Positions 17,920 to 24,751 of a stretch of DNA of 64,000 bases are shown in pieces. This DNA is from Thomasclavelia ramosa DSM 1402. Its GTDB lineage: Bacteria > Bacillota_I > Bacilli_A > Erysipelotrichales > Coprobacillaceae. Location of the stretch: NCBI RefSeq assembly GCF_014131695.1, contig NZ_CP036346.1, positions 124,001 through 188,000 of the forward strand, given 5' to 3'. A program made the translations under genes and the position numbers. Numbering within the stretch: position 1 is the first letter of the stretch; every line of letters starts with the position of its first letter. The notes beneath the pieces are model-generated. The model saw only the letters and a list, made by a program, of their open reading frames with translations. It was not told the origin of the DNA and did not search any database.

Positions 17920-17939
17920 TACAAAAGGTTTATAAAATG

Positions 17940-17966
17940 ATTCAGGTGAGAGCCTGGATTTTTTTA
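17940..17966 (+). terminator. Terminator after the gene remnant
   Basis: ATTCAGG (17940-17946) and CCTGGAT (17953-17959) form a stem with one G-T pair and a TGAGAG loop, followed by seven T. It likely served the decayed gene pair and now insulates the downstream RNA. The 130 bases from here to 18092 are very AT-rich and hold nothing I recognise. Confidence 0.75.
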
Positions 17967-18091: not shown

Positions 18092-18120
18092 TTGCTTTTT
18101 AAAAACTAATGATTTATAAT
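18092..18120 (+). promoter_or_regulatory. Promoter of the structured leader RNA / polyamine operon
   Basis: TTGCTT (18092-18097), 17-base spacer, perfect -10 TATAAT (18115-18120). Predicted start near 18127, so the transcript runs about 360 bases before the speD ATG. Confidence 0.65.
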
Positions 18121-18126
18121 TTAGAT

Positions 18127-18468
18127 ATTGCAAAAGGAGTTATCTATTTTGCGGGAATCTTTTGACCACTCTTAGGAGTTAAAGCCATACGGACAGCTAG
18201 GTCAAAGGCCGGACCGGCAACTTTGTTGCCTTATTGATAGAACGAAAGTTCGAATTTTATAAGTTGATGCTAAATTCCTTAGCATTGAGTTGGTGACTAT
18301 ACAACCGTGTGCTTAGGCACATCACACTTGTGAAACAATCAATAAGAGTAGTAAAAGTAATTCTTGCTATATAGACTCTGACGCTAATAATATAGGATAT
18401 TTTTTGATGTTCTAATAATATGTCGTATTGATACTCAAGTGGGATTGTACCTGCTTGAGTTTTTTTTA
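18127..18468 (+). ncRNA. Structured leader RNA or small RNA upstream of speD, family not identified
   Basis: About 340 bases, richer in G+C than the surrounding intergenic DNA, with many perfect helices: TTTGACC/GGTCAAA (18161-18167 with 18200-18206) enclosing ACTC-TTAG-GAGT (18168-18179); GGCAAC-TTT-GTTGCC (18216-18230); TTATTGAT/ATCAATAA (18231-18238 with 18338-18345) closing a multibranch region that holds GAAC-GAAA-GTTC (18240-18251, a GNRA loop), ATGCTAA/TTAGCAT (18267-18285) and TGTGC-TTAG-GCACA (18308-18321). A good promoter precedes it and a terminator ends it, 10-20 bases before the speD ribosome binding site. This is the layout of a terminator-type riboswitch or of a stand-alone RNA with its own terminator. 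It does not match the SAM, lysine, T-box, ykkC or tmRNA consensus that I know. Confidence 0.65.
18433..18468 (+). terminator. Intrinsic terminator in front of speD
   Basis: ACTCAAG (18433-18439) plus GGG pairs with CC and CTTGAGT (18454-18460) and is followed by eight T. TTGAGT at 18285-18290 in the upstream hairpin region could pair with ACTCAA (18433-18438) and so act as an antiterminator; this alternative fold is only an inference. Confidence 0.8.
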
Positions 18469-18487
18469 TGGAGAAGGGGAAACTGGT

Positions 18488-19273
18488 ATGAATGAGAAAT
18501 TAAAATTATATGGTTTTAATAACCTAACTAAATCATTAAGTTTTAATATTTACGATGTTTGCTATGCTAAAGGTCAGAGGGAACAAAAAGATTATATTGC
18601 TTACATTGATGAGCAGTATAATTCAAAGCGATTGACTGATATTCTTTATGAAGTAGCTAATATGATTGGAGCCCATGTATTAAATGTTTCAAAACAAGAT
18701 TATGATCCCCAAGGCGCCAGTGTAACAATGTTATTAGCGGAAGAAGAGATGTTAGAAAGTCGTCAAGGAAAAATGGAAGAAGTTGATGATCGAGTTATTT
18801 TAGGGCATTTAGATAAGAGTCATATTACTGTTCATACGTATCCTGAATATCATCCAGAAACAAGTATTGCGACATTTAGGGTAGATATTGATGTGGCTAC
18901 TTGTGGAGAAATATCACCGTTGTCAACGTTAGATTTTTTAATTAGCAGCTTTGACTCTGATATCATTACAATGGATTATCGGGTCCGCGGTTTTACTCGG
19001 GATATTAAGGGAAAGAAACTTTTTATGGATAGCCCAATGACTTCGATTCAACAGTTTATTGATGTTAAAACATTACTTAACTATGATGCTACAGATATTA
19101 ATGTATATCAGGCTAATTTGTACCATACGAAGATGTTAATCAAAGAAATTGATTTACAAAATTACTTATTTAAAACAGATATCTATGAATTGCCGCCAAA
19201 GGTAAGACTTGAGATAACGAATAATTTACGACAAGAAATGATTGAGATTTACAGTGGAAGTAATATTTTTTAG
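18488..19273 (+). CDS. speD: S-adenosylmethionine decarboxylase proenzyme (E. coli type)
   Basis: Makes decarboxylated SAM, the aminopropyl donor for SpeE. The start at 18488 follows GGAGAAGGGG; upstream in-frame codons lie inside the terminator. The 261-residue proenzyme resembles the long E. coli form rather than the short Bacillus SpeH type. Self-cleavage should occur before Ser111 in GHLDKSHITVHTYPE, making the pyruvoyl group, as at Ser112 in E. coli. Further matches are STCG-like VATCGEISPL and DYRVRGFTRDI. First gene of the polyamine operon. Confidence 0.95.
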   Translation: MNEKLKLYGFNNLTKSLSFNIYDVCYAKGQREQKDYIAYIDEQYNSKRLTDILYEVANMIGAHVLNVSKQDYDPQGASVTMLLAEEEMLESRQGKMEEVDDRVILGHLDKSHITVHTYPEYHPETSIATFRVDIDVATCGEISPLSTLDFLISSFDSDIITMDYRVRGFTRDIKGKKLFMDSPMTSIQQFIDVKTLLNYDATDINVYQANLYHTKMLIKEIDLQNYLFKTDIYELPPKVRLEITNNLRQEMIEIYSGSNIF

Positions 19274-19281
19274 GAGGCAAT

Positions 19282-20733
19282 ATGAAAGTAGATCAAAGTA
19301 GAATGCCTATTTATGAAGCTTTACAGCAAATGAAAAGAGAACGTTTAGTTCCCTTTGATGTTCCTGGCCATAAACATGGTAAAGGAAATCCAGAATTGAC
19401 AGATTTTTTAGGTGAAAAGTGTATGAGTATCGATGTTAATTCAATGAAGCCATTGGATAATTTATGTCATCCAGTTTCGGTAATCAAAGAAGCAGAAGAA
19501 TTAGCAGCTGATGCTTTTAGTGCCGCTCATGCTTTTTTTATGGTAGGCGGAACGACTTCAGCAGTTCAAAGTATGATTATGGCAAGTGTAAAAGCAGGAG
19601 AAAAAATTATTATGCCACGTAATGTCCATCGTAGTGCCATTAATGCGATGATCTTGACTGGGGCGGTTCCGATTTATGTAAATCCTGATGTTGATAAACG
19701 ATTAGGAATATCTCTAGGTATGTCACTTGATCAAGTAGAGCAAGTAATCAAAGATAATCCCGATGCAAAAGCAATCTTAGTAAATAATCCTACGTATTAT
19801 GGGATATGTTCAAATTTAAAAGCGATTGTTGCATTGGCACATAAGCATAATATGCTTGCTTTGGTAGATGAAGCACATGGAACACACTTTTATTTCAATG
19901 ATGATTTACCGATGTCAGCGATGGAGGCTGGAGCAGACATGGCGAGTGTCAGTATGCATAAATCAGGTGGAAGCTTGACGCAAAGCTCTTTCTTACTGTT
20001 AGGAGAAAATGTAAATGCTGATTATGTACGTCAGGTTGTTAATTTGACACAAACAACAAGCGGTTCGTATTTATTGATGGCAAGTCTAGATATGTCACGT
20101 AAAAATTTAGCTATACATGGTAATGAGATTTTTAACAGGGTTCGTCGCCTTGCGGGATACGCACGCACAGAAATCAATCAAATTGGTGATTATTATGCTT
20201 ATTGTAAGGAATTGATCAATGGGGATAGTGTTTATGATTTTGATGTAACGAAATTATCAATATTTACACTTGATATCGGATTGGCTGGAATCGAAGTATA
20301 TGATTTATTAAGAGATGAGTATGGGATTCAAATTGAATTTGGTGATATTGGAAATATTCTTGCTTATATCTCAGTCGGTGATAGTGAAGCAAATATTGAG
20401 CGTTTAATCGGAGCACTTTTGGAAATACGCCGGCGGTTTAAGAAGGATCGGACAGGAATGTTTGATCATGAATATATTAATCCTGAAGTAGTTATTTCTC
20501 CTCAAGCAGCTTTTTATGGAGAAAAAGAATCGTTGCCGCTTTATCAAAGTATTGATCGAGTCTGCAGTGAATTTGTTATGTGTTATCCTCCGGGAATTCC
20601 AATTTTAGCACCGGGTGAAAGGATCACGAAAGAAATTCTAGATTATATTCAATATGCTAAAGAAAAAGGGTGCTTTATGACTGGTCCTGAAGATATGGCA
20701 ATAAATAAACTTAATGTTTTAAAGGGGAGATGA
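19282..20733 (+). CDS. speA: Biosynthetic arginine decarboxylase (SpeA, fold type I)
   Basis: 483-residue PLP enzyme of the Orn/Lys/Arg decarboxylase family, the short Bacillus SpeA form. Seen: PFDVPGHKHGKGNPE near the N-terminus, VDEAHGTHFYFND, and the PLP lysine in SMHKSGGSLTQSS; the end has EFVMCYPPGIPIL and GPEDMA. The agmatinase gene two positions downstream makes arginine the most likely substrate, giving agmatine. Lysine or ornithine decarboxylase cannot be excluded from sequence alone. AGGAGG precedes the ATG, 8 bases after speD. Confidence 0.85.
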   Translation: MKVDQSRMPIYEALQQMKRERLVPFDVPGHKHGKGNPELTDFLGEKCMSIDVNSMKPLDNLCHPVSVIKEAEELAADAFSAAHAFFMVGGTTSAVQSMIMASVKAGEKIIMPRNVHRSAINAMILTGAVPIYVNPDVDKRLGISLGMSLDQVEQVIKDNPDAKAILVNNPTYYGICSNLKAIVALAHKHNMLALVDEAHGTHFYFNDDLPMSAMEAGADMASVSMHKSGGSLTQSSFLLLGENVNADYVRQVVNLTQTTSGSYLLMASLDMSRKNLAIHGNEIFNRVRRLAGYARTEINQIGDYYAYCKELINGDSVYDFDVTKLSIFTLDIGLAGIEVYDLLRDEYGIQIEFGDIGNILAYISVGDSEANIERLIGALLEIRRRFKKDRTGMFDHEYINPEVVISPQAAFYGEKESLPLYQSIDRVCSEFVMCYPPGIPILAPGERITKEILDYIQYAKEKGCFMTGPEDMAINKLNVLKGR

Positions 20734-20738
20734 AATAA

Positions 20739-21590
20739 ATGGAATTATGGTTTACGGAGAGACATACAAATGGTGTGAATTTTTCGATTAAAGTAGATTG
20801 TCAGTTATTTAGTGGTCAAAGTGAATTCCAGAAAATTGATATTTTTGACTCAAAAGAATTTGGACGATTTTTAGCGCTAGACGGTTATATGATGCTAACG
20901 GAAAAAGATGAGTTCATTTATCATGAAATGATTGTTCATGTTCCTATGGCAGTTCATCCTGAAGTCAAAAAAGTATTAGTAATTGGAGCAGGAGACGGGG
21001 GTGTAATTAGAGAATTATGCCGTTATGAAACGATTGAAAAGATTGATATGGTTGAAATAGATGAGTTAGTTGTTGAAGTAAGTAAAAAATATTTACCGAT
21101 GACAGCATGTTGTTTTGATGATCCGCGATTACAAATCTATTATCAAGATGGGTTAAAGTTTGTTAGAGGTAAAGAAAATGAATATGATTTGATCATTGTT
21201 GATTCAACAGATCCTTTTGGACCGGGGGAAGGACTGTTTACAAAGGAATTTTATGGTAACTGTTATAAAGCATTAAATGATACAGGAATTATGGTTAATC
21301 AACATGAAAGTCCTTTTTATCAAGAAGATGCTGTTGCAATGCAACGGGCTCATAAACGAATTGTTGAAAGTTTTCCGATTTCTCGAGTCTATCAAGCGCA
21401 TATTCCTACCTATCCTTCAGGGCATTGGTTATTTGGTTTTGCTTCAAAAAAATATCATCCCATCAAAGATTTTCAAAAAACAAAATGGAATGCTCGAGGG
21501 ATGAAAACAAAGTATTATAATACCGGCATTCATGTAGGTTCGTTTGCATTACCAAATTATGTAGAGGAGTTATTAAGAGATGTGGAATAA
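20739..21590 (+). CDS. speE: Spermidine synthase / aminopropyltransferase
   Basis: 283-residue methyltransferase-fold enzyme that transfers the aminopropyl group of decarboxylated SAM to an amine acceptor, normally putrescine. Seen: decarboxylated SAM loop VIGAGDGGVIRE, VEIDE, and the acceptor-site signature DSTDPFGPGEGLFTKEFY. Placement between speA and speB leaves agmatine as a possible acceptor (aminopropylagmatine route). Overlaps speB by 11 bases. Confidence 0.92.
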   Translation: MELWFTERHTNGVNFSIKVDCQLFSGQSEFQKIDIFDSKEFGRFLALDGYMMLTEKDEFIYHEMIVHVPMAVHPEVKKVLVIGAGDGGVIRELCRYETIEKIDMVEIDELVVEVSKKYLPMTACCFDDPRLQIYYQDGLKFVRGKENEYDLIIVDSTDPFGPGEGLFTKEFYGNCYKALNDTGIMVNQHESPFYQEDAVAMQRAHKRIVESFPISRVYQAHIPTYPSGHWLFGFASKKYHPIKDFQKTKWNARGMKTKYYNTGIHVGSFALPNYVEELLRDVE

Positions 21591-22443
21591 AAATATACAG
21601 ACGTTTATTGGACTAGAGGCATCGTTTGATGAAGCTGAGTGTGTAATCTTTGGAGCCCCAATGGATAGTACCACCTCATATCGACCGGGAACTCGTTTTG
21701 CTTCATCTTCAATGCGCCAAGAGTCATTTGGTCTAGAGACATACAGTCCCTATCAGGATAAAGATTTAGAAGATATTAAAGTTTTTGATGGTGGTGATCT
21801 TGAATTACCATTTGGAAATCCCCGCAAAGCATTAGATATAATCAAAGTAACAACAAAAACAATTATTAAAGCAAATAAATTACCATGTATGATTGGTGGC
21901 GAACATCTTGTTACGTTAGGAGCTTTTGAGGCAGTATTTGAGAAATATCCAGAGATACGTGTTATTCATTTCGATGCTCATACCGATCTACGTGATGAGT
22001 ATTTAGGTGAAAAACTTTCCCATGCTTCTGTGATTAGACGAATATATGATTTAATTGGTGATAATAAAATATATCAATTTGGAATTCGTAGTGGTGAACG
22101 AGAAGAGTTTTGCTTTGCTAGAGAACATACTAATTTAAATAAATTTAATTTTACAGGACTATCAAAAGCAATTGAGGCATGCCGCGGGTATCCGGTGTAT
22201 TTTACAATTGATCTAGATGTCTTGGATCCCAGTGTATTTCCAGGAACAGGAACGCCCGAAGCAGGAGGCGTGACTTTTATGGAACTATTAGAGGCGATGA
22301 TTGTTGTAAGTGAGCTAAATGTAGTAGCTATGGATATTAATGAATTATCACCTGTTTATGATCAAAGTGGAGGATCAACGGCAGTCGCTTGCAAAGTATT
22401 AAGGGAATTATTATTAGCAATGAATAAAGGAGAAAATAAATGA
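21580..22443 (+). CDS. speB: Agmatinase family ureohydrolase
   Basis: 287-residue binuclear manganese ureohydrolase removing urea from agmatine to give putrescine. Metal ligands are visible in GGEHLVTLG (His), HFDAHTDLRDEY (Asp, His, Asp) and TIDLDVLDPS (Asp, Asp). Ribosome binding site GAGGAG lies inside speE, and the stop shares ATGA with the next gene. N1-aminopropylagmatine is an alternative substrate given the operon content. Confidence 0.9.
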   Translation: MWNKNIQTFIGLEASFDEAECVIFGAPMDSTTSYRPGTRFASSSMRQESFGLETYSPYQDKDLEDIKVFDGGDLELPFGNPRKALDIIKVTTKTIIKANKLPCMIGGEHLVTLGAFEAVFEKYPEIRVIHFDAHTDLRDEYLGEKLSHASVIRRIYDLIGDNKIYQFGIRSGEREEFCFAREHTNLNKFNFTGLSKAIEACRGYPVYFTIDLDVLDPSVFPGTGTPEAGGVTFMELLEAMIVVSELNVVAMDINELSPVYDQSGGSTAVACKVLRELLLAMNKGENK

Positions 22444-23642
22444 AAAGAACGTTAATTATTGGTTGTGGTGGAGTTGCAACAGTAGCGATTCACAAATGTT
22501 GTCAAAACAGTGAGATATTTGAAGAAATTATGATTGCGTCAAGAACAAAAAGTAAATGTGATAAACTAAAAGCGCAGTTAGATGGGAAAACAAAAACAAT
22601 TATTCATACAGCACAAGTTGATGCTGATAATGTTGAAGAGCTAGTTGCTTTAATGAAAGATTTCCAACCAGAGGTAGTTTTGAATCTTGCATTACCATAC
22701 CAAGATTTAAAAATTATGGATGCTTGTTTGGAAGCTGGTTGTCATTATGTAGACACCGCTAACTATGAGCCGGAAGATACAGCAAAATTTGAGTATAGCT
22801 GGCAATGGGCATACCGTGAAAAATTTGAACAGGCGGGATTAACAGCGATTCTTGGATGTGGTTTTGATCCTGGGGTAACTGGTGTATTTAGTGCTTACGC
22901 TTTAAAGCATGAATTTGATGAAATTAATTATATTGATATTTTAGACTGTAATGGTGGGGATCATGGATATCCATTTGCAACAAATTTTAATCCAGAAATT
23001 AATATTCGCGAAGTATCTGCCAACGGAAGTTATTGGGAAGATGGACATTGGGTAGAGACAAAACCAATGGAAATTAAACGTGAATATGATTTTGCCCAAG
23101 TTGGTAAAAAAGATATGTATTTGTTGCATCACGAAGAGCTGGAGTCATTGGGTTTAAATATTCCGGGAATCAAACGAATTAGATTCTTTATGACTTTTGG
23201 CGAAAGCTATTTAACACATCTAAAGTGCTTAGAAAATGTAGGAATGACATCGATTGAACCAATTGAATATGAAGGTAAACAGATTATTCCATTGCAATTT
23301 TTAAAAGCAGTTCTACCAGATCCTGCCAGCTTAGGACCACGAACAGTTGGCAAAACAAATATTGGATGCATTTATCAAGGGAAAAAAGACGGTCAAGAAA
23401 AAAAATATTATTTATATAATGTATGCGACCATCAAGAATGTTATAAGGAAGTTGGGTCTCAAGCCGTTAGTTATACTACAGGAGTTCCGGCAATGATTGG
23501 AACGATGCTGTTATTACAAGGTCAATGGAAGAGAGCCGGTGTTTATAATGTTGAAGAATTTGACCCGGATCCATTTATGGAAGCATTAAATAAATGGGGA
23601 TTGCCATGGATTGAAGATCATAATCCGGTATTAGTAGATTAA
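22440..23642 (+). CDS. Carboxyspermidine/carboxynorspermidine dehydrogenase
   Basis: 400-residue saccharopine-dehydrogenase-like NADPH enzyme. It condenses a diamine with L-aspartate beta-semialdehyde and reduces the imine to a carboxylated triamine. Seen: N-terminal Rossmann motif IGCGGVATVAIHKC, YVDTANYEPED, and the CGFDPGVTGVFSAYA stretch typical of CASDH. Its immediate neighbour is the matching decarboxylase, overlapping by TAATG, which settles the assignment against lysine-biosynthetic saccharopine dehydrogenase. Confidence 0.9.
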   Translation: MKRTLIIGCGGVATVAIHKCCQNSEIFEEIMIASRTKSKCDKLKAQLDGKTKTIIHTAQVDADNVEELVALMKDFQPEVVLNLALPYQDLKIMDACLEAGCHYVDTANYEPEDTAKFEYSWQWAYREKFEQAGLTAILGCGFDPGVTGVFSAYALKHEFDEINYIDILDCNGGDHGYPFATNFNPEINIREVSANGSYWEDGHWVETKPMEIKREYDFAQVGKKDMYLLHHEELESLGLNIPGIKRIRFFMTFGESYLTHLKCLENVGMTSIEPIEYEGKQIIPLQFLKAVLPDPASLGPRTVGKTNIGCIYQGKKDGQEKKYYLYNVCDHQECYKEVGSQAVSYTTGVPAMIGTMLLLQGQWKRAGVYNVEEFDPDPFMEALNKWGLPWIEDHNPVLVD

Positions 23643-24751
23643 TGAAGACACCATATTATTTAATTGATGAACAATTATTAGAAAAAAATTTAAAAATACT
23701 TTATACGGTTAAAGAACGAACTGGTTGTAAAATTCTATTGGCTCAAAAATGTTTTTCAATGTTCAGTGTTTACCCTCTAATAGCTGAATATTTAGATGGG
23801 ACAACTGCTAGTGGACTATATGAAGCTAAGCTTGGCTATGAAGAGATGCATAAAGAAAATCATGTTTTTAGTACCGCCTATCGTGATGATGAAATTGAAG
23901 AAATCATGAATATATGTGACCATGTAGTCTTTAATTCATTTAATCAGTGGCAAAAATATCAAAATCTAGCAAAACAAACAAGTACTTCATGTGGAATTAG
24001 AATCAATCCTGAATGTTCAACTCAAATAGGTCATGAAATCTATGATCCTTGCGCAAAGTTTTCACGAATGGGGGTAACATTAGAAAACTTTAAGGAAGAA
24101 CTGCTTGAGGGAATAGAGGGACTGCATTTTCATACTCTATGTGAACAAAACAGCGATGATTTAATAACTACTATTAGGGCTGTTGAAGAAAAATTTGGTA
24201 AGTATTTAGGACAAATGAAATGGTTGAATTTTGGTGGTGGTCATCATATTACTCGTAAAGACTATGATCTTGAAAAATTAATAAAAATTATTAATGAAAT
24301 AAAAGAAAAATATCAAGTACAAGTATATTTAGAGCCAGGTGAAGCTGTGGCTTTAAATGCTGGGTTTCTAGTTTCCAGTGTTCTAGATATTATCCACAAT
24401 GGTATGGCTATCGCAATTATGGATACTTCAGCAGCTTGTCATATGCCAGATGTATTAGAGATGCCGTATCGACCAGAAATTATCGATAGTGCACTACCAA
24501 ATGTTAAAACATACACATATCGCTTAGGAGGACCAACTTGTTTAGCTGGAGATATTATTGGTGATTATTCATTTGACCAGCCTTTACAGGTAGGACAACA
24601 GTTATGGTTTAAAGATATGGCAATTTATTCAATGGTAAAAAATAATACTTTTAATGGGATGAACTTACCTAGTATTGTTTTAAAACAAAAAGAAAAACTT
24701 AAAATAATCAAAGAATTCAATTATTGTGATTTTAAAAATCGGTTGTCATAA
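23642..24751 (+). CDS. nspC: Carboxynorspermidine/carboxyspermidine decarboxylase
   Basis: 369-residue fold-III PLP decarboxylase (alanine-racemase-like) completing the aspartate-semialdehyde route by removing CO2 to give spermidine or norspermidine. PLP lysine is in ILLAQKCFSMFS; the family motifs FHTLCEQNSDDL, WLNFGGGHHIT and GGPTCLAGDIIGDY are present. Last gene of the six-gene polyamine operon and followed directly by a bidirectional terminator. Confidence 0.93.
   Translation: MKTPYYLIDEQLLEKNLKILYTVKERTGCKILLAQKCFSMFSVYPLIAEYLDGTTASGLYEAKLGYEEMHKENHVFSTAYRDDEIEEIMNICDHVVFNSFNQWQKYQNLAKQTSTSCGIRINPECSTQIGHEIYDPCAKFSRMGVTLENFKEELLEGIEGLHFHTLCEQNSDDLITTIRAVEEKFGKYLGQMKWLNFGGGHHITRKDYDLEKLIKIINEIKEKYQVQVYLEPGEAVALNAGFLVSSVLDIIHNGMAIAIMDTSAACHMPDVLEMPYRPEIIDSALPNVKTYTYRLGGPTCLAGDIIGDYSFDQPLQVGQQLWFKDMAIYSMVKNNTFNGMNLPSIVLKQKEKLKIIKEFNYCDFKNRLS

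Follow-up and report, generated by a model that had tools for sequence, protein, structure and literature searches.

Polyamines are abundant RNA-binding cations. The rare SAM-I variant is the sole validated bacterial polyamine riboswitch that we found in the literature searched, a spermidine riboswitch (Salvail et al. 2023, PMC10853860) that is associated with ldcC, speE, speB, and speD and acts as a terminator-type OFF switch with an antiterminator, and its authors held that further polyamine riboswitch classes surely exist (PMC10853860). Other RNA leaders precede ornithine decarboxylase genes, namely, the speF motif of alphaproteobacteria (PMC11477304) and the odc1 motif, which contains a uORF (PMC8632094). 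Among the large structured RNAs, raiA/ModT acts in trans in C. difficile (PMC11706538).

A further RNA is known from pneumococci as SN20/srn235/F59, a transcript of 318-327 nt for which a promoter and a terminator are predicted (PMC3395615, PMC2887815, PMC12323649); it lies immediately 5' of SP_0916, on that gene's strand. The SN20 report put it at 869478-869791, in the gap separating SP_0915 from SP_0916, gave it 318 nt with promoter and terminator, and tentatively suggested an FMN switch on the strength of a shared motif (PMC2887815); as F59, with the synonym srn235, it was placed at 869510-869591 (PMC3395615), and as M7 at 869478-869804, matched in 385 genomes (PMC12323649). This pneumococcal "sRNA" is listed as affecting lung infection (PMC4387999). 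In the open-access journal papers searched, we found no description of the leader as a polyamine leader or riboswitch candidate.

Here, we analyzed a stretch of 64,000 nt from Thomasclavelia ramosa DSM 1402 (contig NZ_CP036346.1, positions 124,001 to 188,000; hereafter the window), in which an RNA with predicted promoter and terminator likewise lies on the same strand just ahead of its neighboring gene. Like raiA/ModT, it is a large structured RNA that is highly conserved in Bacillota, and like the speF and odc1 motifs, it is an RNA leader, although without the uORF of odc1. The SAM-I variant resembles it in gene association and in the OFF logic that we propose for it, but the window RNA appears larger (~250 nt) and more widespread than that variant, of which 13 representatives were aligned (PMC10853860). 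We consider it fairly probable that the window RNA acts in cis as a transcription-terminating leader for the polyamine operon and is, most likely, a riboswitch for spermidine or a close polyamine.

The locus in the window

The promoter, multihelix RNA, and terminator occupy about 18127-18468 of the window, immediately 5' of the genes speD-ldc-speE-speB-CASDH-CASDC:

18092-18120, + strand: promoter read from the sequence, -35 box TTGCTT (18092-18097), 17-nt spacer, -10 box TATAAT (18115-18120)
18433-18468, + strand: intrinsic terminator, 5' arm 18433-18443, 3' arm 18450-18460, then a T tract
18488-19273, + strand: speD, S-adenosylmethionine decarboxylase, E. coli type (TIGR03331, 398 bits, cut-off 256)
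19282-20733, + strand: ldc/speA-like PLP-dependent basic amino acid decarboxylase (NCBIfam lysine/arginine/ornithine decarboxylases, all below cut-off)
20739-21590, + strand: speE, polyamine aminopropyltransferase (TIGR00417 and NF002010, above cut-off)
21580-22443, + strand: speB, agmatinase (TIGR01230, above cut-off)
22440-23642, + strand: CASDH, carboxy(nor)spermidine dehydrogenase/synthase (NF043000, 410 bits, under the cut-off of 800)
23642-24751, + strand: CASDC (nspC), carboxynorspermidine decarboxylase (TIGR01047, above cut-off)

Judged by these protein family matches, the set from speD to CASDC is a predicted polyamine biosynthesis operon. It combines speE with CASDH/CASDC (18488-24751), enzymes of two routes to spermidine-like polyamines.

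The first-pass annotation had described a TTGCTT-N17-TATAAT promoter, many perfect helices, and a strong terminator directly before speD, and all three were recovered. Both promoter boxes are present at that spacing, and the -35 box is weak, agreeing with the consensus at just 3/6 positions, which is why the pair is missing from the promoter scan list. The promoter position predicts a transcription start at ~18127, and TATAAT is also retained upstream of the RNA in a relative of the same genus (L003). The terminator consists of ACTCAAGTGGG-ATTGTA-CCTGCTTGAGT plus a T tract, with ATTGTA as the loop; terminator-like sites number 3 per the kilobase scanned versus 0.1 expected. A second terminator-like hairpin with a T tract (GATTCAGGTGAGAGCCTGGATT TTTTT) lies at 17939-17965, between the ATP synthase genes and the promoter of the RNA, with no called gene to go with it. 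The helices ACTC-TTAG-GAGT, GTGC-TTAG-GCAC, GAAC-GAAA-GTTC (GNRA loop), GGCAAC/GTTGCC, and TTATTGAT/ATCAATAA are all there, and the predicted folding energy is -98.6 kcal/mol versus -76.3 +/- 5.3 for dinucleotide shuffles (z = -4.2; 0/100 shuffles equal). The opposite strand folds at -77.4 kcal/mol, weaker in absolute terms, yet its z is -3.9.

Across the whole window, Rfam at the gathering threshold gives one match, RF02440 (SpF59_sRNA, "ldcC RNA"), 54 nt at 18163-18212, covering model positions 1-54 (full length) with 54.1 bits against a gathering cut-off of 37.2. RF02440, which derives from a pneumococcal "sRNA", is filed as an sRNA and covers just the P2 domain described below, whereas the window element comprises ~250 nt plus the terminator. 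The first-pass annotation named no matching class; the RNA is in fact partly represented in Rfam, through this domain only. SAM-I has no match in the window (gathering threshold), in the leader (E up to 10), or in relative L173 (E up to 1); the SAM-I-variant spermidine riboswitch was rejected, since the SAM-I aptamer fold is not found. T-box and speF/odc1-type families have no Rfam match in the window or leader, and T-box and the other Rfam classes were rejected on the Rfam scans. A suggested link to raiA was dropped as well: RF03072 has no match in the window's whole genome (a search without a positive control) and none in the Rfam scans of relatives.

Architecture and covariation

A pattern built from the 54-nt piece and run on one genome per species yielded at least 120 stretches, whose alignment shows conservation far past the 54 nt and a full element that extends over ~250 nt, from P1 through P1', ahead of the terminator. 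In an alignment of 88 sequences fitted to the structure, 34 of the 44 pairs have changed on both sides and 96.5% of cells pair, and none of 500 shuffles matches this on any measure. Because that alignment was fitted, two checks were made. An alignment by MAFFT only points in the same direction (24 pairs with both-side changes, 95.1% of cells paired). The other is an arm-swap test independent of the fitted alignment, in which each 5' arm is paired with the 3' arm of another species; swapping weakens every helix tested (z of -5 to -20 for P1, P2a, P3a, P4, P6, P8, and P9). Covariation thus supports the predicted helices of the RNA, and comparison among relatives shows a conserved putative structure. 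The first-pass annotation had named absent conservation and covariation, or a match to a known nonregulatory family, as what would count against its proposal; both signals are strong, and the sole family match is the uncharacterized "sRNA" at the same kind of locus.

In the resulting layout, P1 closes the whole element, and inside it lie the P2 domain (P2, P2a, and P2b), an optional P3a, P4, and P5. P5 in turn encloses an inner multibranch of P6 and P7, with P8 and P9 borne on P7:

18136-18158, + strand: P1 5' strand (GGAG..TCTAT..GCGGGAAT), from the MFE fold and swap test
18163-18212, + strand: P2 domain, the Rfam RF02440 (SpF59) portion, with P2 at 18163-18167/18200-18204, the P2a hairpin at 18168-18179, and P2b at 18183-18198
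18216-18230, + strand: P4 hairpin GGCAAC-TTT-GTTGCC, both sides changed in 6/6 pairs (alignment A3)
18231-18345, + strand: P5, TTATTGAT (18231-18238) with ATCAATAA (18338-18345)
18240-18251, + strand: P6 hairpin GAAC-GAAA-GTTC, both sides changed in 4/4 pairs, swap z of -14.8
18259-18264, + strand: P7 5' strand ATAAGT, partner 18326-18331, 97% of cells paired
18264-18290, + strand: insertion hairpin (GATGCTAA..TTAGCATT), including TTGAGT at 18285-18290, in a subset of relatives only (alignment A1)
18292-18320, + strand: P8 (GGT/ACC, 18292-18306) and P9 (GTGC-TTAG-GCAC, 18309-18320), from the swap test and covariation
18325-18332, + strand: switching strand CACTTGTG, either P7 3' strand (18326-18331) or antiterminator 5' strand (18325-18330)
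18360-18379, + strand: P1 3' strand (ATTCTTGC..ATAGA.CTCT), from the MFE fold and swap test

For P1, the swap test over 59 leaders gives -15.8 kcal/mol for own arms versus -13.5 for swapped arms (z of -7.5); for P2a, z is -20. In distant relatives, other complementary sequences take the place of P2, such as GCCTC/GGGGC (L165) and TCAGA/TCTGA (L184). The helix said earlier to close a multibranch corresponds to P5, with 98% of cells paired across the 88 sequences. P7 retains a U-G wobble in nearly all sequences of both the fitted and the MAFFT-only alignments, and P8/P9 are missing in some relatives (L053, L125). The conserved P2b loop CATACGGACA and GAGTAGTAAAAG are near-invariant unpaired stretches. 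RNAalifold preferred a helix P3 (GCCG/CGGC), which clashes with P4 (GGCAAC/GUUGCC) and was dropped, as P4 covaries. Leaders of Bacillus and Paenibacillus (e.g., L007 and L014) carry an extra conserved stretch, GATATATTTTGAATATTAA..GCTTTC, between P1 and the terminator.

Distribution and gene association

Judged by sequence matches, the RNA recurs in Bacillota, with a few cases in contigs of Spirochaetota and Synergistota. Most of the named ones among the matches listed belong to Paenibacillus, Bacillus relatives, Clostridia, and Acetobacterium; Spirochaetes, Synergistaceae, and Brachyspira each appear in the title of one contig. Lactococcus lactis likewise gives an RF02440 match. The pattern or RF02440 gave 125 loci among the matches listed, of which 114 have sufficient downstream DNA, and in 111 of these the next recognized gene is a polyamine gene (CASDH in 50, speD in 39, potA in 19, and ldc in 3; raw counts that include shared ancestry). 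At one locus (L006), potA is confirmed by NF043075 above cut-off. The other three (L002, L004, and L125), which came out of the surveys within the window's own group, lie ahead of lipoprotein genes.

The first RF02440 surveys were sparse, because they were limited to the window's group and because the 54-nt model misses relatives without the canonical P2 domain. A covariance model of 171 positions (R1) found L165, L166, L167, L170, L183, L184, and L185, in which the P2 domain is absent or altered and which Rfam missed. Its survey of 299 genomes from the phylum to which a Neobacillus locus belongs (Bacillota) added 13 loci, all 13 of which adjoin speD, ldc, or CASDH downstream; a second survey of the same genomes gave no further loci. 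Three further loci, all ahead of speD, came from the phylum of the Spirochaetes-titled contig. Within the window's family, 17/43 genomes carry the RNA, with 13 loci preceding speD or ldc and 4 preceding C39-like lipoproteins. The association of the putative RNA with polyamine genes is thus likewise shown by comparison.

The pneumococcal transcripts are probably homologues of the window RNA, a view that rests on RF02440 and position. That this RNA could instead be a small RNA that works in trans, has a promoter and terminator of its own, and is found at polyamine loci by chance is suggested by the sRNA type given in Rfam and by the discrete ~320-nt transcript seen for SN20/srn235/F59. We regard this as highly improbable given its same-strand position right before four kinds of polyamine gene and the conserved antiterminator described below, which a stand-alone sRNA would not need. 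Location and antiterminator together argue for a putative cis-acting leader.

The switch and its ligand

The P7 3' strand, ACUUGUG, is almost invariant, and besides pairing within the RNA, it is complementary to the terminator 5' arm. CAAG or CAGG occurs at the start of the terminator in 78 of 88 sequences, against 11% expected from shuffled arms and 41 of 1,261 control windows between both elements. Over 58 diverse leaders, the antiterminator duplex has a mean energy of -11.3 kcal/mol versus -5.0 with shuffled arms and -10.0 +/- 0.26 when swapped between species, so the duplex is both conserved and coadapted. In the window, the pairing is short (6 bp), with CACUUG (18325-18330) opposite CAAGUG, encoded by CAAGTG at 18436-18441 inside the terminator 5' arm; in some leaders (L010, L026, L105), the P9 3' strand also joins the antiterminator. 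By complementarity, P7 and the antiterminator are predicted to exclude each other, as are the antiterminator and the terminator, and comparison shows this relation across leaders. As sought in a riboswitch, complementarity and the swap test over 58 leaders predict a mutually exclusive terminator/antiterminator platform, and a conserved structured domain occupies the 5' leaders of genes that are related in function. An equilibrium model of the window RNA gives -89.9 kcal/mol for aptamer plus terminator versus -79.5 for the antiterminator state; predicted stability therefore favors the former, and the ON state would have to be kinetic, reached during transcription.

TTGAGT at 18285-18290 had been put forward as a possible competitor for the terminator arm. 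The sequence is present, but the conserved competitor is CACTTG at 18325-18330, and TTGAGT was rejected as a general feature because most relatives are without that hairpin; it may still make an extra contact in the window's genus.

Ribosome-mediated attenuation through a leader peptide would find its start in AAAGGAG and a short TTG-started frame at ~18149, but hairpin lengths vary freely among leaders and a Shine-Dalgarno sequence with a frame of at least five codons occurs in just 1/58, and we rejected this explanation as barely credible. The frame itself (eight codons, MRESFDHS; 18135-18175 with AAAGGAG) overlaps P1/P2 and, given that 1/58, is probably due to chance.

The proposed leader would work as follows. 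At low ligand levels, the P7 3' strand (CACUUG) would pair with the terminator 5' arm (CAAGUG), in many relatives helped by the P9 3' strand, so that the terminator is blocked and the operon transcribed. When the ligand is plentiful, P7 and the core would be stabilized and the 5' arm freed, the terminator would form, and transcription would stop after ~340 nt. Such logic would amount to end-product control, shutting off genes for synthesis and import. We infer direct binding of a small molecule, its identity as a polyamine, and the OFF sign of control. The layout of a terminator-type riboswitch proposed by the first-pass annotation is supported by the conserved fold, gene association, and conserved antiterminator, with ligand binding as a prediction.

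The same traces of conservation and switching would be left by an RNA-binding protein, and a dedicated polyamine-responsive one might set the balance between terminator and antiterminator. We regard such a protein-dependent attenuator as unlikely, since the size of the RNA, its near-invariant unpaired stretches, and its intricate cross-phylum fold are more typical of aptamers.

With a riboswitch as the preferred reading, the ligand could be another molecule of the pathway (decarboxylated SAM, MTA, agmatine, putrescine, cadaverine, or carboxyspermidine), as speD, ldc, and CASDH are all associated with the RNA. This has some chance of being right, albeit a small one: potABCD (19 loci among the matches listed) and leaders of CASDH-CASDC only are without a common precursor, but spermidine is made or transported in both cases. 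Across the speD, CASDH-CASDC, ldc, and potABCD pathways, the single shared molecule is spermidine or a close polyamine. Of the ligands guessed earlier (polyamine, SAM, or arginine), a polyamine appears to fit all gene associations best, and SAM and arginine are improbable, given that the same RNA is also carried by potABCD importers and by CASDH-CASDC operons.

On balance, we favor the view that these leaders form a large natural class of polyamine riboswitch that has so far gone unrecognized and that has no structural relation to the SAM-I variants. This class would be common in Bacillota, occur in some Spirochaetota/Synergistota as well, and control synthesis and import, with SN20/srn235/F59 as one of its terminated leaders. 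If so, a pneumococcal "sRNA" linked to lung infection would be reinterpreted as a polyamine operon cis leader. As the RNA appears larger and more widespread and stands before genes for synthesis as well as uptake, it would open polyamine homeostasis to direct testing in many Bacillota.

In the surveys of the window's family and class, seven loci are followed by genes without a known polyamine role, and these exceptions fall mostly within the window's own family and order. Downstream of six (L004, L125, L166, and L170-L172) are C39-peptidase-like lipoproteins and downstream of the seventh (L002) a peptidase-like lipoprotein; the lipoprotein gene is possibly a new target of the same switch. The C39-like lipoproteins that follow divergent RNA copies carry EWSCGV..GGHWQVIIGYD, their family being assigned by eye.
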